This document shows, piece after piece, positions 44,276 to 64,000 of a DNA stretch of 64,000 nt. The DNA is taken from contig NW_026909577.1 in NCBI RefSeq assembly GCF_033115175.1, positions 1,054,001 through 1,118,000 on the forward strand, written 5' to 3'. The stretch's first letter is position 1. The number at the start of each line of letters is the position of its first letter. The position numbers and the translations under genes were made by a program. The notes beneath the pieces are model-generated. The model ran no database searches and had not been told where the DNA came from. It worked only from the letters and a program-made list of their open reading frames with translations. This DNA is from Lepus europaeus (lineage: Eukaryota; Chordata; Mammalia; Lagomorpha; Leporidae).

Positions 44276-44276
44276 T

Positions 44277-45425: not shown

Positions 45426-45620
45426 TTGTTTTTTTTTTTTTCATTTCCAATTCTCTTTATATACAGAAGATCAATTCAGTATATAATTAGTAAAGACCTC
45501 ATCAGTTTGTGCCCACAAAGAAACACAAATTATAAAAATACTGTTTCAGTACTAGTTACAGCATCACTTCGCTTTAGACGACACATTAGGGACAGATCCC
45601 ACATGGGGTGTAAGTACACA
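45426..45620 (-). repeat. Second L1 3'-terminal segment
   Basis: After a 50-bp AT-rich spacer the L1 3'-terminal sequence begins again: poly-T, then CAATTCTCTTTATATACAGA (also at 45,216) and the following ~150 bp in the same order. The element therefore carries two 3' ends in tandem. Confidence 0.75.
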
Positions 45621-47130
45621 GTGACTCCTGTTGCTGACTTAACAATTTGACACTCCTGTTCATGGTGTCAGTAATCTCCCTAGGCTCTAGTCATGAGTTG
45701 CCAGGGCTATGGAAGCCTTTAGAGTTCGCTGACTCTGATCTCATTCCGATAGGGCCACAGTCAAAGTGGAAGTTCTCTCCTCCCTTCAGAGAAGGGTACC
45801 TCCTTCTTTGATGGCCCCTTTCTTTCCACTGGGATCTCACTCCCAGAGATCACTCATTTAGGTCTTTTTTTCTTTTTTCCATGATATCTTGGCTTTCCAT
45901 GCCTGCCATACTCTCATGGGCTCTTCCGCCAGATCCGAATACCCTGAGGGCTGATTCTGAGGCCAGAGTGTTGTTTAGGACATCTGCCATTCTATGAGTC
46001 TGCTGTGTATCCCGCTTCCCATGTTGGATCTTTCTCTCCCTTTTTGATTCTATCAGTTAGTATTAGCAGATACTTGTTTGTGTGATCCCTTTGACTCTTA
46101 GACCTATCAGAGCTATCAATTGTGAGCTGAAATTGATCACTTGGACTAGTGCGATGGCATTGGTACATGTCATCTTGGTGGGATTGTGTTGGAATCCCCT
46201 GGCACATTTCTGACTCCACCATTTGCGGCCAGTCCGATTGAGCATGTTCCAAATTGTTCATCTCCTCCCTCTCTTTTTCCACTCTTAGATTTAACAGGGA
46301 TTACTTTTCAGTTGAAATTTAAACACCTAAGAATAATTGTGTGTTAATTACTGAGTTCAACCAATAGTACTAGAACAACAACAACAACAACAACAAATAC
46401 TAAAAAGGATAAAGTATTACATTGTACATCTAAAGTCAGGACAGGAGCTGATCAGTTCATTGTCGCTTATAGTGTCCATTTCACTTAATAGGTTTCCCCT
46501 TTGGCGCTCAGTTGTCACCGATCAGGGAAAACAAATGATATTTTTCTCTTTGGGACTGGCTTAATTCACTCAGCATGATGTTTTCCAGATTGCTCCATCT
46601 TGTTGCAAATGACTGGGTTTCGTTGTTTCTTACTGCTGTATAGTATTCTATGGAGTACATGTCCCATAATTTCTTTATCCAGTCTACTGTTGATGGGCAT
46701 TTGGGTTGGTTCCAGGTCTTAGCTATTGTGAATTAAGCTGCAATAAACATTAATGTGCAGATGGCTTTTTTATTAGCCAAGTTAAGTTCCTTTGGGTAAA
46801 TTCCAAGGAGTGGGATGGCTGGGTTGTATGGTAGGGTTATGTTCAGGTTTCTGAGGAATCTCCAGACAGACTTCCATAGTGGCTTAACCAGTTTGCATTC
46901 CCACCAACAGTGGGTTAGTGTCCCTTTTTCCCCACATCCTCTCCAGCAGCTGTTGTTGGTAGATTTCTGAATGTGGGCGATTCTCACCGGGGTGAGATGG
47001 AACCTCATTGTGGTTTTAATTTGCATTTCTTTGATTGCTAGTGATCTTGAACATTTTTTCATGTGTCTGTTGGCCATTTGGATTTCCTCTTTCGAAAAAT
47101 GTCTATTGAGGTCCTTGGCCCATCTCTTAA

Positions 47131-48255
47131 GTGGGTTGTTTGTTTTGTTGTTGTGGATTTGATAAAATACAACACCCTTTCATGATGAAAACTCTAAGCA
47201 AACTGGGTATGGAAGGAACATTCCTCAATACAATCAAAGCAATATATGAAAAACCCACGGCCAACATACTATTGAATGGGGAAAAGTTGGAAGCATTTCC
47301 ATTGAAATCTGGTACCAGACAGGGATGCCCACTCTCACCACTGCTCTTCAATATAGTTCTGGAAGTTTTGGCCAGAGCTATTAGGCAAGAAAAAGAAATT
47401 AAAGGGATACAAATTGGTAAGGAAGAACTCAAACTATCCCTCTTTGCAGATGATATGATTCTTTATTTAGGGGACCCAAAGAACTCTACTAAGAGACTGC
47501 TGGAACTCATCGAAGAGTTTGGCAAAGTAGCAGGATATAAAATCAATGCACAAAAATCAACGGCCTTTGTATACACAGGCAATGCCACGGCTGAGGAAGA
47601 ACTTCTAAAATCAATCCCATTCACAATAGCTACAAAAACAATCAAATACCTTGGAATAAACTTAACCAAAGACGTTAAAGTTCTCTACGATGAAAACTAC
47701 AAAACCTTACAGAAAGAAATAGAAGAGGATACCAAAAAATGGAGAAATCTTCCATGCTCATGGATTGGAAGAATCAATATCATCAAAATGTCTATTCTCC
47801 CAAAAGCAATTTATACATTCAATGCAATACCCATCAAGATCCCGAAGACCTTCTTCTCAGATCTGGAAAAAATGATGCTGAAATTCATATGGAGACACAG
47901 AAGACCTCGAATAGCCAAAGCAATCCTGTACAACATAAAAAAAGCCGGAGGCATCACAATACCTGATTTCAGGACATACTACAGGGCTGTTGTTATCAAA
48001 ACAGCGTGGTACTGGTACAGAAACAGATGGATAGATCAATGGAACAGAATAGAAACACCAGAAATCAATCCAAACATCTACAGCCAACTTATATTTGACC
48101 AAAGATCCAAATCTAACCCCTGGAATAAGGACAGTCTATTCAATAAATGGTGCTGGGAAAATTGGATTTCCATGTGCAGAAGCTTGAAGCAAGACCCATA
48201 CCTATCACCTTACACAAAAATTCACTCAACATGGATTAAAGACTTAAATCTATGA
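47131..48255 (+). pseudogene. L1 ORF2 segment (reverse transcriptase, C-terminal half)
   Basis: An open 374-codon frame encoding part of the LINE-1 ORF2 protein, which nicks target DNA and reverse-transcribes RNA. Visible: [34 protein letters not shown] and the catalytic FADDM at about codons 109-113, then the conserved thumb and downstream region. The endonuclease domain and first RT motifs are missing; the frame opens in the inversion joint and ends in a TGA inside ORF2 at 48,253-48,255. The rest of ORF2 lies in the opposite orientation at lower coordinates, so this is a dead copy. Confidence 0.88.
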
Positions 48256-48501
48256 CCAGAAACCATCAAATTATTAGAGAGCATTGGAGAAACCCTGCAA
48301 GATATAGGCACAGGCAAAGACTTCCTGGAAAATACTCCAACAGCACAGGCAGTCAAAACCAAAATTAACATTTGGGATTGCATCAAATTGAGAAGTTTCT
48401 GTACTTCAAAAGAAACAGTCAGGAAAGTGAAGAGGCAACCAACAGAATGGGAAAAAATATTCGCAAACTATACTACAGATAAAGGATTGTGTATTCGTTT
48501 T

Positions 48502-48829
48502 GAGAGGAGAAACACAGTGGGGGCAAGAGGTGTGGAGTCAAGACACAGACACTGGGGGTCAGGTGAAAGCGGGCTAGAGGTGAGCAGCTTGCAGACTCTT
48601 GCAGTTGGTGCAGCAGCTTATCTAGCCAAGGCAGCCAGTCTGATCAAGGGATGGTTTATGACATAACCAATCACTGCCTGTTGCTAGGCAGGCTCCTTTG
48701 GGTTCTGAAGCCATTTCCTGAGTAACTGCCATTCGCTAGCCAGTGCCATCTTGGCAAGGTCTGCTCATTCCACCACAGTTAATTAGGTAAGTAGCATATT
48801 GTTGGGCAGGTCTTATCCACATGCAACTC
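48502..48829. other. Unassigned, possible LTR remnant
   Basis: About 330 bp with moderate GC (GGAGAAACACAGTGGGGGCA onward). Its character resembles an old LTR, but I could not match a family or find ends. Confidence 0.25.
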
Positions 48830-49095
48830 GAGAACATTTTCATCACCCCCAACTGAAACCTATCTGCATGAAATGCCACCTCACCTGCTCTCCTACCCGC
48901 TAGGCTCTAGCGGTCACTACTTTCAGTCTTTATGAATGTGACTACCCTGGGTACTTCATGTAAGTACAGTCATACAGTATTATCCTATTGTATGTGGCTT
49001 ATTTCACATAGCATCGTGACCTCAATGGTCACTCGTGTTACACTCTGTGTCAGAGTTTCCTTCATTTCTAAGGCTATGAATATAAATAATATCCC
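48830..49095 (-). mobile_element. Old L1 3' region fragment
   Basis: Reversed old L1 phrases: AGAACATTTTCATCACCCCC, TATGTGGCTTATTTCACATA. Confidence 0.65.
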
Positions 49096-49319
49096 ATAAT
49101 ACGTATAGATAGTCCTGGACATACAATGTGTGATGCCCAGATAAGTAGATCCCCAAGAAGCTATGTAGGTATTAAATTATATACTTCAAAAATTTCATAG
49201 AAAATGGAATTAAAGTAGGAGTTTAATTAGGTGCTAAATTGAGTTTGAACCCCATACATTTTTTTTCCTTGATACACATTTTCCATGTGTTAAGAAAACA
49301 ATTTTTAAAAGTGTTTAAA

Positions 49320-49573
49320 TACTTGTTACTTATTTGAAAGGCAGAGTTACAGGGGTGGGGGAAGGCTAGTTCACTCCCCAAATGGCCACATCGCTGGAGT
49401 TGGGCTGATCCGAAATCAGGAGCCAGGAGCTCCTTTCCGGTCTCCCACCTATGTGCAGGGGCCAGAAGCTGCTTTCCTAGGAGCATTAGCAGGGAGCTGG
49501 ATTGGAGTGAAGCAACCATACAGGATGCTGGTGCTGCAGGTGCTGGGTTAACCTGCTATGTCAAAGGGCCAGT
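49320..49573 (-). mobile_element. CSINE, diverged
   Basis: Antisense C repeat from TACTTATTTGAAAGGCAGAG to the reversed head ACCTGCTATGTCAAAGGGCC. Followed by a TTTTG run at 49,578-49,600. Confidence 0.85.
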
Positions 49574-49603
49574 GTTTTTGCTTTGTTTTGTTTTGTTTTT
49601 TGC

Positions 49604-49954
49604 AGCAAAAACTTTTGTATGAAAACAAACTCCTACTTTTAATTCCATTTTCACATATACTTTCTGCAGTTGCTTCTTATTTAGCCTCCAGTATTAGTTA
49701 ATCTTCCACAGTCTGACAACTTTTTAATGAAGTCTTTTTGTTATTTCTTATTTTCAAAGACCATGCTTATGACAGAATATCTAAAACTACTGAGCAGCCA
49801 GGCACCATTAAAAACATCATTACCTGAATGTCAGAAATAAACACAGTATTGAATGAAAGAAGGGAGTCACAAGGGAATGACGACTTCAAGGAGCCTGTTT
49901 TGAAAACTGGACAAACTTGAATTCCACTGTCTGGGGGTATTTGGGGAGGCATGC
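49604..49954. other. Intergenic sequence, nothing recognised
   Basis: No supported gene or repeat. Confidence 0.4.
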
Positions 49955-50105
49955 TGAGGTGACAGAACTGTAAAGGCCACGAAGTGGTGATAGCTGTAGC
50001 ACACTCAGTGGTAGACGTGGGTGTGTACCCTGTGATAATTCATTGAACTGTACACATGTTTTCTCTATATGTGTGATTCCTCACAACACAAATAGATTTA
50101 AAAAG
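49955..50105 (+). mobile_element. Possible old L1 3' end
   Basis: AAGTGGTGATAGCTGTAGCA and ATTGAACTGTACACATG resemble the end of an L1M 3'UTR in sense. Confidence 0.4.
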
Positions 50106-50136
50106 TCATAACCCTCAGACGCAGTTAAACATTTCT

Positions 50137-50430
50137 CTTGGGACAAGCATTTGGAGCAGCAGTCAAGCCGCCACTTGGGATGCCTGCATTCCATAGCAGA
50201 GTGCCTGCATTCAGGTCCTGGATCCACTCTTGACTCCAGGTTCCTGCTAATGTACACCCTAGGAGGTAACTGTGATAACTCAAATACTTGGGGTCCTGAA
50301 TCTCCATAGGAGATCCAGACAAAATGCACAGTTCACTGCTTTAGCCTGGCACAGTTCTGGCTGTTGCACGCATTTGGATAGCTAGCTAGTAGAGAAAGAG
50401 ATCACTCTGCCTTTCAAATAAAATTTTTTT
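50137..50430 (+). mobile_element. CSINE, old
   Basis: Sense diverged C repeat (ACTCCAGGTTCCTGCTAATG, CTCTGCCTTTCAAATAAAAT end). Confidence 0.75.
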
Positions 50431-50547
50431 TCTTTTAATAATTAGCATATAGCCTTCCAGTTCAATTCTTATCCATGATTATATCCACACACTATTTTGT
50501 AACAAGTTGTCTGTACTGGATGTATTGTGAGCATGCTTCCTTTTGGT

Positions 50548-51074
50548 CACATGAGATGGTGACTAGAATGGCTCCAATATAAAAGACTACAAATATCAAA
50601 ATGTTGGAGATGATGTGGAGAAACTGGAACCTATCCTATCTTACTGGTGAAAATGTAAAATAGTGTGATGACTTGTGGAAATGGGTTAGCAATTGCTAAA
50701 GAGTCAAATATACACTTAGTATACATCCCAGCGATTCTATTCCTAGGCATTTATGCAAGAGAAAATGTGAAAATATATCAATGCAGACTCACACATATAT
50801 ATGTGTGTGTTTGTGTGTGTGTGCATAATCATGAATTTTCACAGCAGCATTATTCATAATAGACAAAACATGAACACAGTCCAGATGTCCATAAACCAAA
50901 AATGACTCAACAAATGGTATTGTACCCAACTACAGAATTCCCCACCCCTCAACACACACAACACTACAATGGACAGACTTCTCACACATACTACAACACG
51001 GGTGAATCTTGAAGCCAATATGCTAAGTGAAAAGTGCCAGGCATACAATATTACATCTTGTATGTCCACTTACA
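50548..51074 (+). mobile_element. Old L1 fragment abutting the claudin array
   Basis: Sense old L1 ORF2 C-terminus: TGTTGGAGATGATGTGGAGA, CAGCAGCATTATTCATAATA, CTACAACACGGGTGAATCTT, TGCTAAGTGAAAAGTGCCAG. It includes a TG microsatellite at about 50,800-50,823. The L1 is cut at TGTATGTCCACTTACA, where the tandem array begins. Confidence 0.82.
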
Positions 51075-51435
51075 CTTTATCATCCTTGCACTTAGAAATG
51101 TGTACATGGGCATTGTGGGGACCAATACCCTCTTCAACCCATTTGTGGCTTCTGGAGTCCTGTACATAACTGCCAGTGCCTGTGTCTTAACCACTGCGTT
51201 CTGGAATTACTACTCCGTTGTGAATGTACCAGGCATTGCCTTCCCGTCGTCTTTCCATCTGCCCTTCAAGCCGGATCCTCAGGAAGCTGGGAGTGCCATT
51301 CCAGTGGCAGCTCTGTCTGCCCTCCTCATGTGGTTGAGTGGCTTGGTTTTCTGCTTTTATAAGTTTCCCCCTGGACAGGAATATGTATCCCGAGGTTTCA
51401 GAAACATGGATTTTCTGGAAACATCGGCTGTGTAG
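51034..51435 (+). pseudogene. Claudin-34-like copy, 5'-truncated, fused to L1
   Basis: The first array copy lacks the first 30 or so codons; claudin-type sequence starts at 51,075 (FIILALRNVYMG). An in-frame ATG at 51,034 in the L1 fragment gives a 133-codon chimeric frame: 14 L1-derived residues, then the claudin-34-like segment to the normal TAG at 51,433-51,435. The fusion is probably accidental. Confidence 0.75.
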
Positions 51436-51456
51436 ATCCACGATTCCCAGGAGTTT

Positions 51457-51906
51457 ATGGAAGGACTAACCCAGGATAATCTTCCAAATAGTATATCTCA
51501 ACACCTCCTGCTGGCTGCCAACCTTCTAGGGCTTCTGGGGAAGGCCTTTATCATCCTTGCACTTAGAAATGTGTACATGGGCATTGTGGGGACCAATACC
51601 CTCTTCAATCCATTTGTGTCTTCAGGAGTCCTGTACATAACTGCCAGTGCCTGTGTCTTAACCACTGCGTTCTGGAATTACTACTCCGTTGTGAATGTAC
51701 CAGGCATTGCCTTCCCGTCGTCTTTCCATCTGCCCTTCAAGCCGGATCCTCAGGAAGCTGGGAGTGCCATTCAGGTGGCAGCTCTGTCTGTCCTCCTCAT
51801 GTGGTTGAGTGGCTTGGTTTTCTGCTTTTATAAGTTTCCCCCTGGACAGGAATATGTATCCCGAGGTTTCAGAAACATGGATTTTCTGGAAACATCGGCT
51901 GTGTAG
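51457..51906 (+). CDS. Claudin-34-like ORF, array copy 1 (coding unproven)
   Basis: 149 codons with three predicted helices. Distinguishing residues: F31, Y60, P98, Q106; private changes S55 and V111. ATG context GTTTATGG is weak at -3 but has G at +4. No promoter, splice or poly(A) signal is visible inside the unit. Confidence 0.6.
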   Translation: MEGLTQDNLPNSISQHLLLAANLLGLLGKAFIILALRNVYMGIVGTNTLFNPFVSSGVLYITASACVLTTAFWNYYSVVNVPGIAFPSSFHLPFKPDPQEAGSAIQVAALSVLLMWLSGLVFCFYKFPPGQEYVSRGFRNMDFLETSAV

Positions 51907-51927
51907 ATCCACGATTCCCTGGAGATT

Positions 51928-52377
51928 ATGGAAGGACTAACCCAGGATAATCTTTCAAATAGTATATCTCAACACTTCCTGCTGGCTGCCAACCTTCTAG
52001 GGCTTCTGGGGAAGGCCTTTATCATCCTTGCACTTAGAAATGTGTACATGGGCATCGTGGGGACCAATACCCTCTTCAACCCATTTGTGGCTTCTGGAGT
52101 CCTGTACATAACTGCCAGTGCCTGTGTCTTAACCACTGCGTTCTGGAATTACTACTCCGTTGTGAATGTACCAGGCATTGCCTTCCCGTTCTCTTTCCAT
52201 CTGCCCTTCAAGCCGGATATTCAGAAAGCCGGGAGTGCCATTCCAGTGGCAGCTCTGTCTGCCCTCCTCATGTGGTTGAGTGGCTTGGTTTTCTGCTTTT
52301 ATAAGTTTCCCCCTGGACAGGAATATGTATCCCGAGGTTTCAGAAACATGGATTTTCTGGAAACATCGGCTGTGTAG
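51928..52377 (+). CDS. Claudin-34-like ORF, array copy 2 (coding unproven)
   Basis: F31, Y60, P106. The most divergent full copy: S10, F17, F88, I98, K100, and a spacer before the ATG reading CCCTGGAGATT instead of CCCAGGAGTTT. Confidence 0.6.
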   Translation: MEGLTQDNLSNSISQHFLLAANLLGLLGKAFIILALRNVYMGIVGTNTLFNPFVASGVLYITASACVLTTAFWNYYSVVNVPGIAFPFSFHLPFKPDIQKAGSAIPVAALSALLMWLSGLVFCFYKFPPGQEYVSRGFRNMDFLETSAV

Positions 52378-52398
52378 ATCCACGATTCCCAGGAGTTT

Positions 52399-52848
52399 AT
52401 GGAAGGACTAACCCAGGATAATCTTCCAAATAGTATATCTCAACACCTCCTGCTGGCTGCCAACCTTCTAGGGCTTCTGGGGAAGGCCTTTATCGTCCTT
52501 GCACTTAGAAATGTGTACATGGGCATTGTGGGGACCAATACCCTCTTCAACCCATTTGTGGCTTCTGGAGTCCTGTTCATAACTGCCAGTGCCTGTGTCT
52601 TAACCACTGCGTTCTGGAATTACTACTCCGTTGTGAATGTACCAGGCATTGCCTTCCCGTCGTCTTTCCATCTGCCCTTCAAGCCGGATCCTCAGGAAGC
52701 TGGGAGTGCCATTCCAGTGGCAGCTCTGTCTGCCCTCCTCATGTGGTTGAGTGGCTTGGTTTTCTGCTTTTATAAGTTTCCCCCTGGACAGGAATATGTA
52801 TCCCGAGGTTTCAGAAACATGGATTTTCTGGAAACATCGGCTGTGTAG
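52399..52848 (+). CDS. Claudin-34-like ORF, array copy 3 (coding unproven)
   Basis: F31, V33, F60, P98, P106; the only F60 copy that keeps proline at 106, so mosaic between types B and C. Confidence 0.6.
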   Translation: MEGLTQDNLPNSISQHLLLAANLLGLLGKAFIVLALRNVYMGIVGTNTLFNPFVASGVLFITASACVLTTAFWNYYSVVNVPGIAFPSSFHLPFKPDPQEAGSAIPVAALSALLMWLSGLVFCFYKFPPGQEYVSRGFRNMDFLETSAV

Positions 52849-52869
52849 GTCCACGATTCCCAGGAGTTT

Positions 52870-53319
52870 ATGGAAGGACTAACCCAGGATAATCTTCCAA
52901 ATAGTATATCTCAACACCTCCTGCTGGCTGCCAACCTTCTAGGGCTTCTGGGGAAGGCCTTTATCATCCTTGCACTTAGAAATGTGTACATGGGCATTGT
53001 GGGGACCAATACCCTCTTCAACCCATTTGTGGCTTCTGGAGTCCTGTACATAACTGCCAGTGCCTGTGTCTTAACCACTGCGTTCTGGAATCACTACTCC
53101 GTTGTGAATGTACCAGGCATTGCCTTCCCGTCGTCTTTCCATCTGCCCTTCAAGCCGGATCCTCAGGAAGCTGGGAGTGCCATTCCAGTGGCAGCTCTGT
53201 CTGCTCTCCTCATGTGGTTGAGTGGCTTGGTTTTCTGCTTTTATAAGTTTCCCCCTGGACAGGAATATGTATCCCGAGGTTTCAGAAACATGGATTTTCT
53301 GGAAACATCGGCTGTGTAG
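52870..53319 (+). CDS. Claudin-34-like ORF, array copy 4 (type C)
   Basis: F31, Y60, H75, P98, P106. Protein identical to copies 6 and 13. Confidence 0.6.
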   Translation: MEGLTQDNLPNSISQHLLLAANLLGLLGKAFIILALRNVYMGIVGTNTLFNPFVASGVLYITASACVLTTAFWNHYSVVNVPGIAFPSSFHLPFKPDPQEAGSAIPVAALSALLMWLSGLVFCFYKFPPGQEYVSRGFRNMDFLETSAV

Positions 53320-53340
53320 ATCCACGATTCCCAGGAGTTT

Positions 53341-53790
53341 ATGGAAGGACTAACCCAGGATAATCTTCCAAATAGTATATCTCAACACCTCCTGCTGGCT
53401 GCCAACCTTCTAGGGCTTCTGGGGAAGGCCTATATCATCCTTGCACTTAGAAATGTGTACATGGGCATTGTGGGGACCAATACCCTCTTCAACCCATTTG
53501 TGGCTTCTGGAGTCCTGTACATAACTGCCAGTGCCTGTGTCTTAACCACTGCGTTCTGGAATTACTACTCCGTTGTGAATGTACCAGGCATTGCCTTCCC
53601 GTCGTCATTCCATCTGCCCTTCAAGCCGGATACTCAGGAAGCTGGGAGTGCCATTCCAATGGCAGCTCTGTCTGCCCTCCTCATGTGGTTGAGTGGCTTG
53701 GTTTTCTGCTTTTATAAGTTTCCCCCTGGACAGGAATATGTATCCCGAGGTTTCAGAAACATGGATTTTCTGGAAACATCGGCTGTGTAG
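53341..53790 (+). CDS. Claudin-34-like ORF, array copy 5 (type A)
   Basis: Y31, Y60, T98; private M107. Confidence 0.6.
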   Translation: MEGLTQDNLPNSISQHLLLAANLLGLLGKAYIILALRNVYMGIVGTNTLFNPFVASGVLYITASACVLTTAFWNYYSVVNVPGIAFPSSFHLPFKPDTQEAGSAIPMAALSALLMWLSGLVFCFYKFPPGQEYVSRGFRNMDFLETSAV

Positions 53791-53811
53791 GTCCACGATT
53801 CCCAGGAGTTT

Positions 53812-54261
53812 ATGGAAGGACTAACCCAGGATAATCTTCCAAATAGTATATCTCAACACCTCCTGCTGGCTGCCAACCTTCTAGGGCTTCTGGGGAAGGC
53901 CTTTATCATCCTTGCACTTAGAAATGTGTACATGGGCATTGTGGGGACCAATACCCTCTTCAACCCATTTGTGGCTTCTGGAGTCCTGTACATAACTGCC
54001 AGTGCCTGTGTCTTAACCACTGCGTTCTGGAATCACTACTCCGTTGTGAATGTACCAGGCATTGCCTTCCCGTCGTCTTTCCATCTGCCCTTCAAGCCGG
54101 ATCCTCAGGAAGCTGGGAGTGCCATTCCAGTGGCAGCTCTGTCTGCTCTCCTCATGTGGTTGAGTGGCTTGGTTTTCTGCTTTTATAAGTTTCCCCCTGG
54201 ACAGGAATATGTATCCCGAGGTTTCAGAAACATGGATTTTCTGGAAACATCGGCTGTGTAG
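53812..54261 (+). CDS. Claudin-34-like ORF, array copy 6 (type C)
   Basis: F31, Y60, H75, P98, P106. Protein identical to copies 4 and 13. Confidence 0.6.
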   Translation: MEGLTQDNLPNSISQHLLLAANLLGLLGKAFIILALRNVYMGIVGTNTLFNPFVASGVLYITASACVLTTAFWNHYSVVNVPGIAFPSSFHLPFKPDPQEAGSAIPVAALSALLMWLSGLVFCFYKFPPGQEYVSRGFRNMDFLETSAV

Positions 54262-54282
54262 ATCCACGATTCCCAGGAGTTT

Positions 54283-54732
54283 ATGGAAGGACTAACCCAG
54301 GATAATCTTCCAAATAGTATATCTCAACACCTCCTGCTGGCTGCCAACCTTCTAGGGCTTCTGGGGAAGGCCTATATCATCCTTGCACTTAGAAATGTGT
54401 ACATGGGCATTGTGGGGACCAATACCCTCTTCAACCCATTTGTGGCTTCTGGAGTCCTGTACATAACTGCCAGTGCCTTTGTCTTAACCACTGCGTTCTG
54501 GAATTACTACTCCGTTGTGAATGTACCAGGCATTGCCTTCCCGTCGTCATTCCATCTGCCGTTCAAGCCGGATACTCAGGAAGCTGGGAGTGCCATTCCA
54601 GTGGCAGCTCTGTCTGCCCTCCTCATGTGGTTGAGTGGCTTGGTTTTCTGCTTTTATAAGTTTCCCCCTGGACAGGAATATGTATCCCGAGGTTTCAGAA
54701 ACATGGATTTTCTGGAAACATCGGCTGTGTAG
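54283..54732 (+). CDS. Claudin-34-like ORF, array copy 7 (type A)
   Basis: Y31, Y60, T98, P106; private F66 replaces a cysteine in the third claudin helix. Confidence 0.6.
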   Translation: MEGLTQDNLPNSISQHLLLAANLLGLLGKAYIILALRNVYMGIVGTNTLFNPFVASGVLYITASAFVLTTAFWNYYSVVNVPGIAFPSSFHLPFKPDTQEAGSAIPVAALSALLMWLSGLVFCFYKFPPGQEYVSRGFRNMDFLETSAV

Positions 54733-54753
54733 GTCCACGATTCCCAGGAGTTT

Positions 54754-55203
54754 ATGGAAGGACTAACCCAGGATAATCTTCCAAATAGTATATCTCAACA
54801 CCTCCTGCTGGCTGCCAACCTTCTAGGGCTTCTGGGGAAGGCCTTTATCATCCTTGCACTTAGAAATGTGTACATGGGCATTGTGGGGACCAATACCCTC
54901 TTCAACCCATTTGTGGCTTCTGGAGTCCTGTTCATAACTGCCAGTTCCTGTGTCTTAACCACTGCGTTCTGGAATTACTACTCCGTTGTGAATGTACCAG
55001 GCATTGCCTTCCCGTCGTCTTTCCATCTGCCCTTCAAGCCGGATCCTCAGGAAGCTGGGAGTGCCATTCAGGTGGCAGCTCTGTCTGCCCTCCTCATGTG
55101 GTTGAGTGGCTTGGTTTTCTGCTTTTATAAGTTTCCCCCTGGACAGGAATATGTATCCCGAGGTTTCAGAAACATGGATTTCCTGGAAACGTCGGCTGTG
55201 TAG
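54754..55203 (+). CDS. Claudin-34-like ORF, array copy 8 (type B)
   Basis: F31, F60, P98, Q106; private S65. Two silent changes near the 3' end, one shared with copy 9. Confidence 0.6.
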   Translation: MEGLTQDNLPNSISQHLLLAANLLGLLGKAFIILALRNVYMGIVGTNTLFNPFVASGVLFITASSCVLTTAFWNYYSVVNVPGIAFPSSFHLPFKPDPQEAGSAIQVAALSALLMWLSGLVFCFYKFPPGQEYVSRGFRNMDFLETSAV

Positions 55204-55224
55204 ATCCACGATTCCCAGGAGTTT

Positions 55225-55674
55225 ATGGAAGGACTAACCCAGGATAATCTTCCAAATAGTATATCTCAACACCTCCTGCTGGCTGCCAACCTTCTAGGGC
55301 TTCTGGGGAAGGCCTTTATCATCCTTGCACTTAGAAATGTGTACATGGGCATTGTGGGGACCAATACCCTCTTCAACCCATTTGTGGCTTCTGGAGTCCT
55401 GTACATAACTGCCAGTGCCTGTGTCTTAACCACTGCGTTCTGGAATTACTACTCCGTTGTGAATGTACCAGGCATTGCCTTCCCGTTGTCTTTCCATCTG
55501 CCCTTCAAGCCGGATCCTCAGGAAGCTGGGAGTGCCATTCCAGTGGCAGCTCTGTCTGCCCTCCTCATGTGGTTGAGTGGCTTGGTTTTCTGCTTTTATA
55601 AGTTTCCCCCTGGACAGGAATATGTATCCCGAGGTTTCAGAAACATGGATTTCCTGGAAACATCGGCTGTGTAG
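55225..55674 (+). CDS. Claudin-34-like ORF, array copy 9 (type C)
   Basis: F31, Y60, Y75, P98, P106; private L88. Confidence 0.6.
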   Translation: MEGLTQDNLPNSISQHLLLAANLLGLLGKAFIILALRNVYMGIVGTNTLFNPFVASGVLYITASACVLTTAFWNYYSVVNVPGIAFPLSFHLPFKPDPQEAGSAIPVAALSALLMWLSGLVFCFYKFPPGQEYVSRGFRNMDFLETSAV

Positions 55675-55695
55675 ATCCACGATTCCCAGGAGTTT

Positions 55696-56145
55696 ATGGA
55701 AGGACTAACCCAGGATAATCTTCCAAATAGTATATCTCAACACCTCCTGCTGGCTGCCAACCTTCTAGGGCTTCTGGGGAAGGCCTATATCATCCTTGCA
55801 CTTAGAAATGTGTACATGGGCATTGTGGGGACCAATACCCTCTTCAACCCATTTGTGGCTTCTGGAGTCCTGTACATAACTGCCAGTGCCTGTGTCTTAA
55901 CCACTGCGTTCTGGAATTACTACTCCGTTGTGAATGTACCAGGCATTGCCTTCCCATCGTCATTCCATCTGCCCTTCAAGCCGGATCCTCAGGAAGCTGG
56001 GAGTGCCATTCCAGTGGCAGCTCTGTCTGCCCTCCTCATGTGGTTGAGTGGCTTGGTTTTCTGCTTTTATAAGTTTCCCCCTGGACAGGAATATGTATCC
56101 CGAGGTTTCAGAAACATGGATTTTCTGGAAACATCGGCTGTGTAG
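55696..56145 (+). CDS. Claudin-34-like ORF, array copy 10 (type A)
   Basis: Y31, Y60, P98, P106. Protein identical to copy 14. Confidence 0.6.
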   Translation: MEGLTQDNLPNSISQHLLLAANLLGLLGKAYIILALRNVYMGIVGTNTLFNPFVASGVLYITASACVLTTAFWNYYSVVNVPGIAFPSSFHLPFKPDPQEAGSAIPVAALSALLMWLSGLVFCFYKFPPGQEYVSRGFRNMDFLETSAV

Positions 56146-56166
56146 ATCCACGATTCCCAGGAGTTT

Positions 56167-56616
56167 ATGGAAGGACTAACCCAGGATAATCTTCCAAATA
56201 GTATATCTCAACACCTCCTGCTGGCTGCCAACCTTCTAGGGCTTCTGGGGAAGGCCTTTATCATCCTTGCACTTAGAAATGTGTACATGGGCATTGTGGG
56301 GACCAATACCCTCTTCAACCCATTTGTGGCTTCTGGAGTCCTGTTCATAACTGCCAGTGCCTGTGTCTTAACCACTGCGTTCTGGAATTACTACTCCGTT
56401 GTGAATGTACCAGGCATTGCCTTCCCGTCGTCTTTCCATCTGCCCTTCAAGCCAGATCCTCAGGAAGCTGGGAGTGCCATTCAAGTGGCAGCTCTGTCTG
56501 CCCTCCTCATGTGGTTGAGTGGCTTGGTTTTCTGCTTTTATAAGTTTCCCCCTGGACAGGAATATGTATCCCGAGGTTTCAGAAACATGGATTTTCTGGA
56601 AACATCGGCTGTGTAG
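56167..56616 (+). CDS. Claudin-34-like ORF, array copy 11 (type B)
   Basis: F31, F60, P98, Q106. Protein identical to copy 15. Confidence 0.6.
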   Translation: MEGLTQDNLPNSISQHLLLAANLLGLLGKAFIILALRNVYMGIVGTNTLFNPFVASGVLFITASACVLTTAFWNYYSVVNVPGIAFPSSFHLPFKPDPQEAGSAIQVAALSALLMWLSGLVFCFYKFPPGQEYVSRGFRNMDFLETSAV

Positions 56617-56637
56617 GTCCACGATTCCCAGGAGTTT

Positions 56638-57087
56638 ATGGAAGGACTAACCCAGGATAATCTTCCAAATAGTATATCTCAATACCTCCTGCTGGCTGCC
56701 AACCTTCTAGGGCTTCTGGGGAAGGCCTTTATCATCCTTGCACTTAGAAATGTGTACATGGGCATTGTGGGGACCAATACCCTCTTCAACCCATTTGTGG
56801 CTTCTGGAGTCCTGTTCATAACTGCCAGTGCCTGTGTCTTAACCACTGCGTTCTGGAATTACTACTCCGTTGTGAATGTACCAGGCATTGCCTTCCCGTC
56901 GTCTTTCCATCTGCCCTTCAAGCCGGATCCTCAGGAAGCTGGGAGTGCCATTCAGGTGGCAGCTCTGTCTGCCCTCCTCATGTGGTTGAGTGGCTTGGTT
57001 TTCTGCTTTTATAAGTTTCCCCCTGGACAGGAATATGTATCCCGACGTTTCAGAAACATGGATTTTCTGGAAACATCGGCTGTGTAG
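56638..57087 (+). CDS. Claudin-34-like ORF, array copy 12 (type B)
   Basis: F31, F60, P98, Q106; private Y16 and R137. A second consecutive B copy, breaking the C-A-B rhythm. Confidence 0.6.
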   Translation: MEGLTQDNLPNSISQYLLLAANLLGLLGKAFIILALRNVYMGIVGTNTLFNPFVASGVLFITASACVLTTAFWNYYSVVNVPGIAFPSSFHLPFKPDPQEAGSAIQVAALSALLMWLSGLVFCFYKFPPGQEYVSRRFRNMDFLETSAV

Positions 57088-57108
57088 GTCCACGATTCCC
57101 AGGAGTTT

Positions 57109-57558
57109 ATGGAAGGACTAACCCAGGATAATCTTCCAAATAGTATATCTCAACACCTCCTGCTGGCTGCCAACCTTCTAGGGCTTCTGGGGAAGGCCTT
57201 TATCATCCTTGCACTTAGAAATGTGTACATGGGCATTGTGGGGACCAATACCCTCTTCAACCCATTTGTGGCTTCTGGAGTCCTGTACATAACTGCCAGT
57301 GCCTGTGTCTTAACCACTGCGTTCTGGAATCACTACTCCGTTGTGAATGTACCAGGCATTGCCTTCCCGTCGTCTTTCCATCTGCCCTTCAAGCCGGATC
57401 CTCAGGAAGCTGGGAGTGCCATTCCAGTGGCAGCTCTGTCTGCTCTCCTCATGTGGTTGAGTGGCTTGGTTTTCTGCTTTTATAAGTTTCCCCCTGGACA
57501 GGAATATGTATCCCGAGGTTTCAGAAACATGGATTTTCTGGAAACATCGGCTGTGTAG
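57109..57558 (+). CDS. Claudin-34-like ORF, array copy 13 (type C)
   Basis: F31, Y60, H75, P98, P106. Protein identical to copies 4 and 6. Confidence 0.6.
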   Translation: MEGLTQDNLPNSISQHLLLAANLLGLLGKAFIILALRNVYMGIVGTNTLFNPFVASGVLYITASACVLTTAFWNHYSVVNVPGIAFPSSFHLPFKPDPQEAGSAIPVAALSALLMWLSGLVFCFYKFPPGQEYVSRGFRNMDFLETSAV

Positions 57559-57579
57559 ATCCACGATTCCCAGGAGTTT

Positions 57580-58029
57580 ATGGAAGGACTAACCCAGGAT
57601 AATCTTCCAAATAGTATATCTCAACACCTCCTGCTGGCTGCCAACCTTCTAGGGCTTCTGGGGAAGGCCTATATCATCCTTGCACTTAGAAATGTGTACA
57701 TGGGCATTGTGGGGACCAATACCCTCTTCAACCCATTTGTGGCTTCTGGAGTCCTGTACATAACTGCCAGTGCCTGTGTCTTAACCACTGCGTTCTGGAA
57801 TTACTACTCCGTTGTGAATGTACCAGGCATTGCCTTCCCGTCGTCATTCCATCTGCCCTTCAAGCCGGATCCTCAGGAAGCTGGGAGTGCCATTCCAGTG
57901 GCAGCTCTGTCTGCCCTCCTCATGTGGTTGAGTGGCTTGGTTTTCTGCTTTTATAAGTTTCCCCCTGGACAGGAATATGTATCCCGAGGTTTCAGAAACA
58001 TGGATTTTCTGGAAACATCGGCTGTGTAG
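57580..58029 (+). CDS. Claudin-34-like ORF, array copy 14 (type A)
   Basis: Y31, Y60, P98, P106. Protein identical to copy 10. Confidence 0.6.
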   Translation: MEGLTQDNLPNSISQHLLLAANLLGLLGKAYIILALRNVYMGIVGTNTLFNPFVASGVLYITASACVLTTAFWNYYSVVNVPGIAFPSSFHLPFKPDPQEAGSAIPVAALSALLMWLSGLVFCFYKFPPGQEYVSRGFRNMDFLETSAV

Positions 58030-58050
58030 GTCCACGATTCCCAGGAGTTT

Positions 58051-58500
58051 ATGGAAGGACTAACCCAGGATAATCTTCCAAATAGTATATCTCAACACCT
58101 CCTGCTGGCTGCCAACCTTCTAGGGCTTCTGGGGAAGGCCTTTATCATCCTTGCACTTAGAAATGTGTACATGGGCATTGTGGGGACCAATACCCTCTTC
58201 AACCCATTTGTGGCTTCTGGAGTCCTGTTCATAACTGCCAGTGCCTGTGTCTTAACCACTGCGTTCTGGAATTACTACTCCGTTGTGAATGTACCAGGCA
58301 TTGCCTTCCCGTCGTCTTTCCATCTGCCCTTCAAGCCGGATCCTCAGGAAGCTGGGAGTGCCATTCAGGTGGCAGCTCTGTCTGCCCTCCTCATGTGGTT
58401 GAGTGGCTTGGTTTTCTGCTTTTATAAGTTTCCCCCTGGACAGGAATATGTATCCCGAGGTTTCAGAAACATGGATTTTCTGGAAACATCGGCTGTGTAG
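58051..58500 (+). CDS. Claudin-34-like ORF, array copy 15 (type B)
   Basis: F31, F60, P98, Q106. Protein identical to copy 11. Confidence 0.6.
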   Translation: MEGLTQDNLPNSISQHLLLAANLLGLLGKAFIILALRNVYMGIVGTNTLFNPFVASGVLFITASACVLTTAFWNYYSVVNVPGIAFPSSFHLPFKPDPQEAGSAIQVAALSALLMWLSGLVFCFYKFPPGQEYVSRGFRNMDFLETSAV

Positions 58501-58521
58501 ATCCACGATTCCCAGGAGTTT

Positions 58522-58971
58522 ATGGAAGGACTAACCCAGGATAATCTTCCAAATAGTATATCTCAACACCTCCTGCTGGCTGCCAACCTTCTAGGGCTTC
58601 TGGGGAAGGCCTTTATCATCCTTGCACTTAGAAATGTGTACATGGGCATTGTGGGGACCAATACCCTCTTCAACCCATTTGTGGCTTCTGGAGTCCTGTA
58701 CATAACTGCCAGTGCCTGTGTCTTAACCACTGCGTTCTGGAATTACTACTCCGTTGTGAATGTACCAGGCATTGCCTTCCCGTCGTCTTTCCATCTGCCC
58801 TTCAAGCCGGATCCTCAGGAAGCTGGGAGTGCCATTCCAGTGGCAGCTCTGTCTGCTCTCCTCATGTGGTTGAGTGGCTTGGTTTTCTGCTTTTATAAGT
58901 TTCCCCCTGGACAGGAATATGTATCCCGAGGTTTCAGAAACATGGATTTTCTGGAAACATCGGCTGTGTAG
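58522..58971 (+). CDS. Claudin-34-like ORF, array copy 16 (type C)
   Basis: F31, Y60, Y75, P98, P106. Shares a silent GCT at codon 112 with the H75 copies, so it is a type C unit that has Y75. Protein identical to copy 19. Confidence 0.6.
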   Translation: MEGLTQDNLPNSISQHLLLAANLLGLLGKAFIILALRNVYMGIVGTNTLFNPFVASGVLYITASACVLTTAFWNYYSVVNVPGIAFPSSFHLPFKPDPQEAGSAIPVAALSALLMWLSGLVFCFYKFPPGQEYVSRGFRNMDFLETSAV

Positions 58972-58992
58972 ATCCACGATTCCCAGGAGTTT

Positions 58993-59442
58993 ATGGAAGG
59001 ACTAACCCAGGATAATCTTCCAAATAGTATATCTCAACACCTCCTGCTGGCTGCCAACCTTCTAGGGCTTCTGGGGAAGGCCTATATCATCCTTGCACTT
59101 AGAAATGTGTACATGGGCATTGTGGGGACCAATACCCTCTTCAACCCATTTGTGGCTTCTGGAGTCCTGTACATAACTGCCAGTGCCTGTGTCTTAACCA
59201 CTGCGTTCTGGAATTACTACTCCGTTGTGAATGTACCAGGCATTGCCTTCCCGTCGTCATTCCATCTGCCCTTCAAGCCGGATACTCAGGAAGCTGGGAG
59301 TGCCATTCCAGTGGCAGCTCTGTCTGCCCTCCTCATGTGGTTGAGTGGCTTGGTTTTCTGCTTTTATAAGTTTCCCCCTGCACAGGAATATGTATCCCGA
59401 GGTTTCAGAAACATGGATTTTCTGGAAACATCGGCTGTGTAG
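58993..59442 (+). CDS. Claudin-34-like ORF, array copy 17 (type A)
   Basis: Y31, Y60, T98, P106; private A130. Confidence 0.6.
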   Translation: MEGLTQDNLPNSISQHLLLAANLLGLLGKAYIILALRNVYMGIVGTNTLFNPFVASGVLYITASACVLTTAFWNYYSVVNVPGIAFPSSFHLPFKPDTQEAGSAIPVAALSALLMWLSGLVFCFYKFPPAQEYVSRGFRNMDFLETSAV

Positions 59443-59463
59443 GTCCACGATTCCCAGGAGTTT

Positions 59464-59913
59464 ATGGAAGGACTAACCCAGGATAATCTTCCAAATAGTA
59501 TATCTCAACACCTCCTGCTGGCTGCCAACCTTCTAGGGCTTCTGGGGAAGGCCTATATCATCCTTGCACTTAGAAATGTGTACATGGGCATTGTGGGGAC
59601 CAATACCCTCTTCAACCCATTTGTGGCTTCTGGAGTCCTGTTCATAACTGCCAGTGCCTGTGTCTTAACCACTGCGTTCTGGAATTACTACTCCGTTGTG
59701 AATGTACCAGGCATTGCCTTCCCGTCGTCTTTCCATCTGCCCTTCAAGCCGGATCCTCAGGAAGCTGGGAGTGCCATTCAGGTGGCAGCTCTGTCTGCCC
59801 TCCTCATGTGGTTGAGTGGCTTGGTTTTCTGCTTTTATAAGTTTCCCCCTGGACAGGAATATGTATCCCGAGGTTTCAGAAACATGGATTTTCTGGAAAC
59901 ATCGGCTGTGTAG
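59464..59913 (+). CDS. Claudin-34-like ORF, array copy 18 (type B)
   Basis: Y31 with F60 and Q106: an A-type first marker joined to B-type later markers, consistent with exchange inside the unit. Confidence 0.6.
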   Translation: MEGLTQDNLPNSISQHLLLAANLLGLLGKAYIILALRNVYMGIVGTNTLFNPFVASGVLFITASACVLTTAFWNYYSVVNVPGIAFPSSFHLPFKPDPQEAGSAIQVAALSALLMWLSGLVFCFYKFPPGQEYVSRGFRNMDFLETSAV

Positions 59914-59934
59914 GTCCACGATTCCCAGGAGTTT

Positions 59935-60384
59935 ATGGAAGGACTAACCCAGGATAATCTTCCAAATAGTATATCTCAACACCTCCTGCTGGCTGCCAAC
60001 CTTCTAGGGCTTCTGGGGAAGGCCTTTATCATCCTTGCACTTAGAAATGTGTACATGGGCATTGTGGGGACCAATACCCTCTTCAACCCATTTGTGGCTT
60101 CTGGAGTCCTGTACATAACTGCCAGTGCCTGTGTCTTAACCACTGCGTTCTGGAATTACTACTCCGTTGTGAATGTACCAGGCATTGCCTTCCCGTCGTC
60201 TTTCCATCTGCCCTTCAAGCCGGATCCTCAGGAAGCTGGGAGTGCCATTCCAGTGGCAGCTCTGTCTGCCCTCCTCATGTGGTTGAGTGGCTTGGTTTTC
60301 TGCTTTTATAAGTTTCCCCCTGGACAGGAATATGTATCCCGAGGTTTCAGAAACATGGATTTTCTGGAAACATCGGCTGTGTAG
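59935..60384 (+). CDS. Claudin-34-like ORF, array copy 19 (type C)
   Basis: F31, Y60, Y75, P98, P106; matches the majority residue at most sites and is identical in protein to copy 16. Confidence 0.6.
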   Translation: MEGLTQDNLPNSISQHLLLAANLLGLLGKAFIILALRNVYMGIVGTNTLFNPFVASGVLYITASACVLTTAFWNYYSVVNVPGIAFPSSFHLPFKPDPQEAGSAIPVAALSALLMWLSGLVFCFYKFPPGQEYVSRGFRNMDFLETSAV

Positions 60385-60405
60385 ATCCACGATTCCCAGG
60401 AGTTT

Positions 60406-60855
60406 ATGGAAGGACTAACCCAGGATAATCTTCCAAATAGTATATCTCAACACCTCCTGCTGGCTGCCAACCTTCTAGGGCTTCTGGGGAAGGCCTATAT
60501 CATCCTTGCACTTAGAAATGTGTACATGGGCATTGTGGGGACCAATACCCTCTTCAACCTATTTGTGGCTTCTGGAGTCCTGTACATAACTGCCAGTGCC
60601 TGTGTCTTAACCACTGCGTTCTGGAATTACTACTCCGTTGTGAATGTACCAGGCATTGCCTTCCCGTCGTCATTCCATCTGCCCTTCAAGCCGGGTACTC
60701 AGGAAGCTGGGAGTGCCATTCCAGTGGCAGCTCTGTCTGCCCTCCTCATGTGGTTGAGTGGCTTGGTTTTCTGCTTTTATAAGTTTCCCCCTGGACAGGA
60801 ATATGTATCCCGAGGTTTCAGAAACATGGATTTTCTGGAAACATCGGCTGTGTAG
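60406..60855 (+). CDS. Claudin-34-like ORF, array copy 20 (type A)
   Basis: Y31, Y60, T98, P106; private L52 and G97. Confidence 0.6.
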   Translation: MEGLTQDNLPNSISQHLLLAANLLGLLGKAYIILALRNVYMGIVGTNTLFNLFVASGVLYITASACVLTTAFWNYYSVVNVPGIAFPSSFHLPFKPGTQEAGSAIPVAALSALLMWLSGLVFCFYKFPPGQEYVSRGFRNMDFLETSAV

Positions 60856-60876
60856 ATCCACGATTCCCAGGAGTTT

Positions 60877-61326
60877 ATGGAAGGACTAACCCAGGATAAT
60901 CTTCCAAATAGTATATCTCAACACCTCCTGCTGGCTGCCAACCTTCTAGGGCTTCTGGGGAAGGCCTTTATCATCCTTGCACTTAGAAATGTGTACATGG
61001 GCATTGTGGGGACCAATACCCTCTTCAACCCATTTGTGGCTTCTGGAGTCCTGTACATAACTGCCAGTGCCTGTGTCTTAACCACTGCGTTCTGGAATTA
61101 CTACTCCGTTGTGAATGTACCAGGCATTGCCTTCCCGTCGTCTTTCCATCTGCCCTTCAAGCTGGATCCTCAGGAAGCTGGGAGTGCCATTCCAGTGACA
61201 GCTCTGTCTGCCCTCCTCATGTGGTTGAGTGGCTTGGTTTTCTGCTTTTATAAGTTTCCCCCTGGACAGGAATATGTATCCCGAGGTTTCAGAAACATGG
61301 ATTTTCTGGAAACATCGGCTGTGTAG
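60877..61326 (+). CDS. Claudin-34-like ORF, array copy 21 (type C)
   Basis: F31, Y60, P98, P106; L96 (shared only with copy 22) and private T108. Confidence 0.6.
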   Translation: MEGLTQDNLPNSISQHLLLAANLLGLLGKAFIILALRNVYMGIVGTNTLFNPFVASGVLYITASACVLTTAFWNYYSVVNVPGIAFPSSFHLPFKLDPQEAGSAIPVTALSALLMWLSGLVFCFYKFPPGQEYVSRGFRNMDFLETSAV

Positions 61327-61347
61327 ATCCACGATTCCCAGGAGTTT

Positions 61348-61797
61348 ATGGAAGGACTAACCCAGGATAATCTTCCAAATAGTATATCTCAACACTTCCT
61401 GCTGGCTGCCAACCTTCTAGGGCTTCTGGGGAAGGCCTATATCATCCTTGCACTTAGAAATGTGTACATGGGCATTGTGGGGACCAATACCCTCTTCAAC
61501 CCATTTGTGGCTTCTGGAGTCCTGTACATAACTGCCAGTGCCTGTGTCTTAACCACTGCGTTCTGGAATTACTACTCCGTTGTGAATGTACCAGGCATTG
61601 CCTTCCCGTCATCTTTCCATTTGCCCTTCAAGCTGGATCCTCAGGAAGCTGGGAGTGCCATTCCAGTGGCAGCTCTGTCTGCCCTCCTCATGTGGTTGAG
61701 TGGCTTGGTTTTCTGCTTTTATAAGTTTCCCCCTGGACAGGAATATGTATCCCGAGGTTTCAGAAACATGGATTTTCTGGAAACATCGGCTGTGTAG
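61348..61797 (+). CDS. Claudin-34-like ORF, array copy 22 (type A)
   Basis: Y31, Y60, P98, P106; L96, and F17 as in copy 2. Followed by a 53-bp partial copy that breaks off at 61,850 after a private ACCCACG change. Confidence 0.6.
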   Translation: MEGLTQDNLPNSISQHFLLAANLLGLLGKAYIILALRNVYMGIVGTNTLFNPFVASGVLYITASACVLTTAFWNYYSVVNVPGIAFPSSFHLPFKLDPQEAGSAIPVAALSALLMWLSGLVFCFYKFPPGQEYVSRGFRNMDFLETSAV

Positions 61798-61850
61798 ATC
61801 CACGATTCCCAGGAGTTTATGGAAGGACTAACCCACGATAATCTTCCAAA

Positions 61851-61971
61851 ATTCCAAACTCTGCAGACCATGGGACATAAAGTGGCTGACTGTTTTCTTC
61901 CACTATATTCTGCGTCTGAATTTGGTTCTTTGGTTGGTTGAATTAAGAACTTTGATTAAAAAAAAAAAACA
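61851..61971 (+). other. 3' flank of the array ending ATTAAA plus A-run
   Basis: About 110 bp of non-array sequence, then GATTAAAAAAAAAAAAC at 61,955-61,971, an ATTAAA hexamer immediately followed by A residues. It could be the 3' end of a retroposed transcript or a chance A-run. Confidence 0.35.
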
Positions 61972-62559
61972 CTTCGCCCATTTGCCAATTGATCTTTTCG
62001 GATCTGGATTTTAATTTCTGTTGGCTGAAATAAATAATCAAAACTAAATCTGTGTGTATGTAAATAAGTGGATCTGAATACATTAACCTCCAATATCTCC
62101 CGCTGAAACTTCTGCTTCCAAAAATAATGGCTCCTATTTCCTAAGTCGTGGTGATAGCATCTCTTTGTCATACAAAGATTACCCTGAGGTGATAAGCAGA
62201 GAAAATAGCGTAAGGAATTTTTACAAAACCAGCGTTTGTCAAGACTCAGCATTTGTCAACATTTTTCTAATCCCTAAGTAGTTAAAGCCTACCTCTGACG
62301 TCAGCTCCCTTCATTCCCATATACTTCAGTATGACTCTCTAGGAATTTGATGTTTATTTGCGTAACCATGTTATACCTACAAAATTGCACAATTATGCTT
62401 TCCAATCAGTTAGAATTTTCAATGCCTCAAAAATAATTTTGTCGTTTTATTTGTTCCACACCAACTGCTCACTCTGTCTCTTAAGTCTTAATCTACACCC
62501 CACCACCACACACACAAATACAGTATCCTGTCTGCTTTTCATTTATGCATCAACTATCC
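61972..62559. other. Intergenic sequence, nothing recognised
   Basis: AT-rich. No gene supported. Confidence 0.4.
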
Positions 62560-62872
62560 ATTTATTTATTTGAGAGACAGAGATTCTTATAGAATCAGAG
62601 AGAGACCACCCATCTGCTGACTCATTTCCCAAATTCCCCCAATGGCTCGGGCAGAGCCAGGCCAAAGCTAGAAGCCAGGAATTCAATCCACGTCTCCTAC
62701 ATGGGTGACAAGTGCGCAACTACTTGAGCCATCACAGCTGCCTCAGAGTATCTGCATGGACAGGAAGCTGGTGTCCTGAGCCAGAGCCAGGAAACAAATC
62801 TGGGTACTATGGGACACGACATATGGCATGAGCATCTTAACCAGTGTCTTACCATCTAGGCCAAACACTAAC
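62560..62872 (-). mobile_element. CSINE, old
   Basis: Antisense diverged C repeat from TTTATTTATTTGAGAGACAG to the reversed head ACCATCTAGGCCAAACAC. Confidence 0.8.
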
Positions 62873-62898
62873 TCTACTTATTTTTTAAAATGACTTTG

Positions 62899-63145
62899 AA
62901 TGGAGCAGGTGTTCAGCACAGTGGTTAAGATACTGCATCTGATATTTACGTATCTGCGTTCAAGTCTCAGCTGTGCTTCTGGTGATAACTTCTTGTTAAT
63001 GCAGCAGTGAATGCTCAAGTGATTGGGTCCCTGTCCCCATTTTGGGAGACCTGAATGGATTGCCAGGCTCCTGGCTTCGACCTGGCCCAGTCCTGGCTGT
63101 TGTGGTTGTGGGCATTTGAGAAGTGAACCAGCAGATGAAGATATC

Positions 63146-63178
<33 letters not shown>

Positions 63179-63208
63179 GCCTTTTCAAATAGATGGAAAT
63201 TAAATTTA
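62899..63208 (+). mobile_element. CSINE, old
   Basis: Sense diverged C repeat (GGAGCAGGTGTTCAGCACAG head) with a (TC)n tract at 63,144-63,178. Confidence 0.82.
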
Positions 63209-63582
63209 CAATTTTTTAAATGATTTTAATTTGCTGAAGAAAATGAGACAACCGACTGCCATTTAACAAGCTACCTTTACATGCCTTATTTGGTCACAGG
63301 TCAACAGTCCTCCATAGCCGGGGCCCTGTACTTCGTGTGGGTTGCATGACATCGGGTGGCAGGTGATCATTGTCCCTTTAGTGATGATAATATTGATCAG
63401 GGGATCCATGACAGGAAGCCTAAGTCCTCTTGTAAATTTCTAAATGAAATTTCCACCTAAACCTAGCAGTTTTATCAATTGTTAACCACTGAGTCATCAT
63501 AGTAAGGGTTGCCTTAGTGCCTTTCTAGTGTGTCCATTTTTGCCAGAGTTAGGAATTAAAATATCTATGTCAAAAGGTTTCC
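63209..63582. other. Intergenic sequence, nothing recognised
   Basis: No supported gene or repeat. Confidence 0.4.
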
Positions 63583-63883
63583 CTCTGGGATTGATGCTGT
63601 GGTGCAATGAGTTAAGTTGCTTGGGACAGCCACAGTGCATATTGGAGTGCCCACTCCTTTCCTCTGTCTTGGATACAGCTCCCTTCTTGAGTGCTGGAAT
63701 GCAGTAGATGATTGCTCAAGTACTTGAGTCCCTGCTACCTGTGGGACACATGGATGGGCATCGTGGCTCCTAGCTTTCGCCTGGTCCAATCCAGGCTGTT
63801 CCAACATTGGGAAGTGAACCAGTGATGGCAGATCTCTCTCTCTCTCTCTCTAGTCCTTCTCTCAAATAAATATTTAAAAAAAT
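63583..63883 (+). mobile_element. CSINE, diverged
   Basis: Sense C repeat (GGGATTGATGCTGTGGTGCA head, CTCAAATAAATATTT tail). Confidence 0.85.
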
Positions 63884-63962
63884 ACTTTTATCAGTTATGG
63901 TTATGTGGTTACTTTAAAATTTAATGCATACAAAATAAGCAGGCTCTAATTGTTTATTTCTT

Positions 63963-64000
63963 TTTTACAAAAATTGTTAACTTTTAATTTATTTGAAAAG
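63963..64000 (-). mobile_element. Probable CSINE tail cut by the window end
   Basis: TTTTAATTTATTTGAAAAG at the last bases matches the start of an antisense C repeat, but too little is present to be sure. Confidence 0.45.

Follow-up and report, generated by a model that had tools for sequence, protein, structure and literature searches.

Claudins are recognised by four transmembrane helices (TM1 to TM4) and by a first extracellular loop carrying the positions W, W, C and C. Here we describe a tandem array derived from a fragment of a claudin gene, CLDN34, in the European hare Lepus europaeus; it lies in a stretch of 64,000 nucleotides (NW_026909577.1, positions 1,054,001 to 1,118,000, forward strand), which is called the window and whose coordinates are used throughout. 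As judged from its nucleotide sequence, the array is very probably a small macrosatellite, a young tandem repeat that arose from a gene fragment and has no protein function. Compared with CLDN34, the unit is the same in sequence from TM2 to the tail and finds its best protein-search matches there, while in the array TM1 and the first extracellular loop are missing, the start codon comes from the 3' flank, the copies number about 23 and no intact parent is present at the locus.

Long tandem arrays with protein-derived sequence in their units, presumably grown by unequal crossing-over, are also found in human DNA, the RS447/USP17 megasatellite among them (PMC2588610, where RS447 figures as a reference title only). 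Their units measure kilobases and contain genes, exons or sets of transposons, whereas the hare unit is a gene fragment of 471 bp whose frame is chimeric. A tomato satellite derived from ribosomal DNA likewise arose from a portion of a gene unit (PMC2679016); its source is ribosomal intergenic DNA, while the hare array derives from protein-coding sequence together with 3' flank, and single-copy loci of the parental type survive. No array of a CLDN34 fragment was found among the titles and first lines of abstracts of the papers listed on claudin-34, CLDN34 in rabbit, Lepus and Oryctolagus satellite DNA, RS447 and gene-fragment satellites, a body of text in which subscription journals are thinly represented.

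Structure of the array and identity of its unit

A whole-genome protein search, in which all 65 candidates were scored and the counts are lower bounds, gave at least 25 claudin-34 matches: one full-length on contig C18, one full-length on contig C24 and 23 in the array. Tandem Repeats Finder (TRF) was applied to the window and returned a period of 471, 22.9 copies, 98% matches and 0% indels at 51075-61850; the units were then phased by cutting on ATG, which gave the following features.

51075..61850, + strand: tandem array, 22.9 copies of a 471-bp unit (TRF and phasing)
51075..51456, + strand: leading partial copy, unit positions 90-471, exactly equal to the array consensus (phasing)
51457..61818, + strand: 22 complete 471-bp units with one 149-codon frame each
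61819..61850, + strand: trailing 32 bases of the unit, leading into the single-copy 3' flank common to C18 and C24
51484..61394, + strand: 22 head-to-tail joints CCAAATAGT-ATATCTCAACA, 3' flank joined to coding sequence

The units are arranged head to tail in a single orientation and with high identity, pairwise differences among the 22 complete units ranging from 0 to 17 of 471 bases. All 22 joints were found, 20 of them exact and two with one mismatch, and their spacing is exactly 471. A 149-codon frame occurs 22 times in the list of open reading frames, always on the + strand and in one common register; the unit length is divisible by three, and 21 bases separate the end of a frame from the next ATG. 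An example peptide of the predicted 149-residue product is MEGLTQDNLPNSISQH. The array at 51075-61850 was thus confirmed as real, together with the period, the copy number and the open frames given in an earlier note on this DNA. The same note had assigned an intact 149-codon frame to each copy, which is correct for the 22 complete units and incorrect for the leading partial copy; the latter has no 149-codon frame of its own and is entered from the flank by a 133-codon GTG frame.

Since the contig (1,128,821 bp) ends about 13 kb past the array, collapse or inflation of the repeat is possible. However, the differences between units are structured, both array edges are unique joints, and a 612-bp record encoding an identical 149-aa protein has the length 471+141, as would a circular path through tandem copies if the assembler used k=141. 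A copy number inflated during assembly from one or two true copies is hence extremely improbable.

The protein search with one unit returned 10 proteins, namely the window's own, one unnamed and eight named claudin-34 or claudin-34-like from rabbit, hare, pika, squirrels, desman and hamster, which bears out the family assignment made previously. With the full-length frame of C18 the search returned 35 proteins, four nameless (the window's own included) and 31 named; 29 of the latter were claudin-34 or claudin-34-like, one was claudin-9-like and one a hypothetical protein. Rabbit claudin-34 (P0002) shares 88% identity with the C24 frame and 91% with that of C18, and the full-length C24 locus encodes the Lepus europaeus claudin-34-like protein (198/198 residues). 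This points to a hare, most likely L. europaeus, and not to a rabbit. The alignment profile matched the solved claudins 18, 4, 3 and 9.

Alignment with relatives indicated that the unit matches claudin-34 from just before TM2 to the tail, without TM1 and the first extracellular loop, and hydropathy analysis of the unit frame revealed three hydrophobic regions, at 15-50, 49-73 and 100-128. These correspond to TM2-TM4, which are kept; the proposal that only a fragment was amplified also stands. The layout of the unit is codons 1-12 from the CLDN34 3' flank followed by TM2, TM3, the second extracellular loop, TM4 and the tail. The unit, which starts after the first loop, lacks the full claudin set of four helices plus the first-loop W, W, C and C, and has three hydrophobic regions only. 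Using the Pfam claudin model, with a cut-off of 29.1, two of the three units scanned (of 22) scored 13.7 bits and the third gave no match, while the full C18 frame scored 33.7.

Origin of the array within a segmental duplicate

The window aligns with C18, and in C18 and C24 the CLDN34 gene is single copy and has the same flanks; the array is therefore, on the evidence of these alignments, located within a segment that duplicates an ordinary locus of the CLDN34 type. For this comparison 80 kb of each locus were used and blocks shorter than 500 bp or below 88% identity were excluded; other blocks of 88-93% fall elsewhere.

24056..64000, + strand: segmental duplicate of C18:76768795-76792534, collinear blocks of at least 500 bp, 97.2-99.1% identical
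50731..51078, + strand: 5' flank, 96.6% identical to C18

The alignment to C18 continues to window coordinate 64487, that is 487 bases beyond the window, and is interrupted by a provirus and by the stretch 45062-48487 (both described below). C24 shares only about 6.5 kb of the duplicated region.

The origin of the unit can be read by comparing the joints with C18, whose coding strand carries ...TCCGTATATCTCAACA... ahead of TM2 and ...CAAATAGTTACAAAC... in the 3' flank. In the array, the joint ...CAAATAGTATATCTCAACA... is a head-to-tail fusion of the two with a 2-base microhomology, GT, and the amplified piece runs from TM2 to 57 bp beyond the stop codon. The 36 bases preceding the joint are 3' flank and include an ATG that is by chance in frame with the coding sequence; about 12 codons (1-12) of each array frame are thus, as aligned, former 3' flank and not claudin sequence. 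The description of the unit as an internal-to-stop fragment has accordingly to be amended: it holds in that only a fragment is present, but the start codon and the first codons come from the 3' flank and the piece extends past the stop. Claudin-34's own upstream region and start codon are deleted at the array, the frame starting in 3'-flank-derived sequence.

A genome-wide search for the joint, allowing up to two mismatches, gave 36 sites, while the reversed control pattern gave eight. Besides the 22 joints of the array, these comprised one site with one mismatch on C3 and 13 with two mismatches elsewhere, so that 22 of the 23 exact or one-mismatch joints are in the array. The joint sequence had no match in the viral contigs.

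At the 5' array edge, the sequence upstream of the gene stops in ...CACTTACACTTT, at the poly(A) end of a short interspersed element (SINE) that C18 and C24 also contain, and continues directly with ...CCTTTATCATCC from within the unit; the two sides have CTTT in common. Compared with C18, the window lacks about 1.2 kb at this edge, including the upstream flank, the start, TM1 and the first loop. The SINE upstream of CLDN34 in C18 and C24 is presumably a CSINE, and it is followed there by the CLDN34 start, TM1 and the first loop, all deleted in the window. Pieces of the CLDN34 3' flank were also observed at L003:1393-1538 and L004:1495-1736, on C8 and C1, being 97.1-98.8% identical to C18 or C24; their starts are no more than 4 bases apart and lie beside the ATG of the array unit, and the piece in L003 directly adjoins a CSINE at its 5' end.

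Classification of the units by diagnostic sites gave, in order, the types o o A B C B C A o C A A B C A B C A o C o C. Unit similarity peaked at lag 3 (mean 5.47 versus 6.75 in permutations, P 0.0033), and a value of 5.47 was also obtained at lag 7 (P 0.0086). Since 15 lags were tested, the evidence for a higher-order repeat of three units is modest, and the pattern weakly suggests unequal crossing-over. The mean difference between units is 6.75/471 (1.4%), and the duplicates outside the array differ by 148 substitutions per 11748 aligned bases (1.26%); as the two values are near each other, growth of the array appears about as old as the duplication.

These observations are consistent with an origin in four steps. 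A CLDN34-type locus on a contig other than the X was duplicated as a segment of about 40 kb, as the alignment shows. In the window copy, the 471-bp piece would then have been duplicated head to tail at the microhomology seen in the joints, possibly by a replication- or end-joining-type process. Unequal crossing-over or sister-chromatid exchange may have expanded it to about 23 copies, at times in blocks of three units, in keeping with the weak periodicity. A deletion reaching from the upstream SINE poly(A) end to the first copy, and perhaps following the growth, removed the upstream flank, the start codon, TM1 and the first loop, as read at the 5' edge. The 149-codon frame would owe its existence to the chance position of the 3'-flank ATG, in frame with the joint, and to the youth of the array.

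Coding potential of the array units

The 22 complete units contain 38 distinct coding variants, of which 23 are nonsynonymous (N), 15 synonymous (S) and none a stop, versus 26, 11 and 1 expected without selection; a stop-free outcome would occur by chance in 37% of cases. The coding variants of the array thus look near neutral. The stem branch leading to the array carries N and S changes in the ratio 5:0, the C18 branch 5:1 and the C24 branch 7:7. Codon 106, in TM4, is Pro in 16 of the 22 complete units and Gln in the other six, and it is Leu in C18 and C24; Leu, Phe, Ile or Val occupies the site in all ten relatives aligned, that of C18 and nine proteins from the database.

Several points weigh against a satellite without protein function. 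The variant counts treat every distinct variant as an independent change, and some of the minor alleles are ancestral. All 22 array frames are open. In addition, the 22 units contain no indel, versus an expectation of 3.3 (P 0.036) or 7.2 (P 0.0007); the expectation derives from three flanking alignments, in which 26 indels per 148 substitutions correspond to 7.2 and the 12 indels outside simple repeats to 3.3. The lack of indels may reflect constraint on the frame, or exchange that favours units of equal length. The earlier note had left the choice between a satellite and a cluster of truncated genes; the variants, the stem branch and codon 106 favour the satellite, while the zero indels point the other way. 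On balance, the array frames are probably open owing to the youth of the array.

Alternatively, about 22 small genes could be clustered here, each coding for a chimeric claudin peptide of three helices; such peptides might for example interfere with full-length CLDN34. The open frames, the lack of indels, the retention of three hydrophobic regions and the identical 149-aa protein of the 612-bp record agree with such a cluster, but the variants look near neutral, TM4 carries Pro or Gln in 22/22 units, the upstream flank and the TM1 region are deleted, and the Pfam claudin scores (13.7 in two units, none in the third) fall short of the cut-off. Start codons are favoured by a purine at -3, and the ATG of the unit has the weak context GAGTTTATGGA, in which -3 is not a purine. 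We therefore consider a gene cluster very unlikely. It is equally improbable that each unit is a newborn gene made of 3'-flank codons and the last three claudin helices and acting on full-length claudin-34 at the protein or small-RNA level. From the features of the frames, translation into three-helix peptides seems unlikely and a protein function of the array improbable.

A regulatory role was also considered, in which transcripts or small RNAs of the array would act on similar CLDN34-type loci, as the Suppressor-of-Stellate repeats act on Stellate. The array is about 94-97% identical to the C18 and C24 loci and would be a multicopy source alongside two full-length loci; however, with a simple consensus no CTCF-like site was found in the array (five in the whole window versus 4.3 expected). 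We regard such a regulatory satellite as very unlikely.

Full-length loci, neighbouring elements and significance

CLDN34 is X-linked in other placentals. C43 was taken as the X of the hare because 33 of 35 MAGE matches are located there, and the contig of the array, C604, is separate from C43 and from C44, which carries ZFY-like matches. The whole-genome protein search gave no claudin-34 match on C43 or on the presumed Y contig C44. The X-linkage given in the earlier note was thus not found in the hare genome; with the full-length loci on C18 and C24 and no match on C43, a relocation of CLDN34 in leporids or hares is suggested. A search for the SHROOM ASD2 domain, directed at the ancestral X neighbourhood, gave six matches, on C10, C5 and C43; GPR143, sought for the same purpose, gave no match, a result that the tool's control marks as uninformative. 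C44 carries three near-identical ZFY-like copies and probably represents a hare Y of ampliconic type.

The two full-length hare frames (L001 and C24) and the array share the tail KFPPGQ..., which is in another frame than the claudin-34 of rabbit, pika and squirrel; the rabbit tail reads KFPLDRNVYPEV... where the hare frames read KFPPGQ.... The parental hare CLDN34 genes may therefore be altered at the C-terminus.

One further element is inserted in the duplicate.

33259..38467, - strand: provirus inside the duplicate, absent from C18, with two identical 472-bp long terminal repeats (LTRs)

The frames of the provirus, on the - strand, are presumably gag- and pol-like; since its LTRs are identical and it is absent from the C18 duplicate, its insertion was probably very recent. 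The stretch 45062-48487 is also absent from the C18 duplicate and has matches of about 91% to other places on C18; its reverse-transcriptase frames we take to be L1-like. Near the C18 locus, L021:3984-6490 holds neighbouring open stretches on the - strand, which on impression only we take to resemble a retroviral envelope.

The array represents a tandem repeat near its birth: the joint and the deletion are legible, the counterparts in single copy survive, and a higher-order pattern can be seen at an early stage. Because its birth can be read, models of the origin of satellites from ordinary genes become testable across hares and rabbits. It is also a warning for annotators, as 22 open and conserved-looking frames are possible without a gene.

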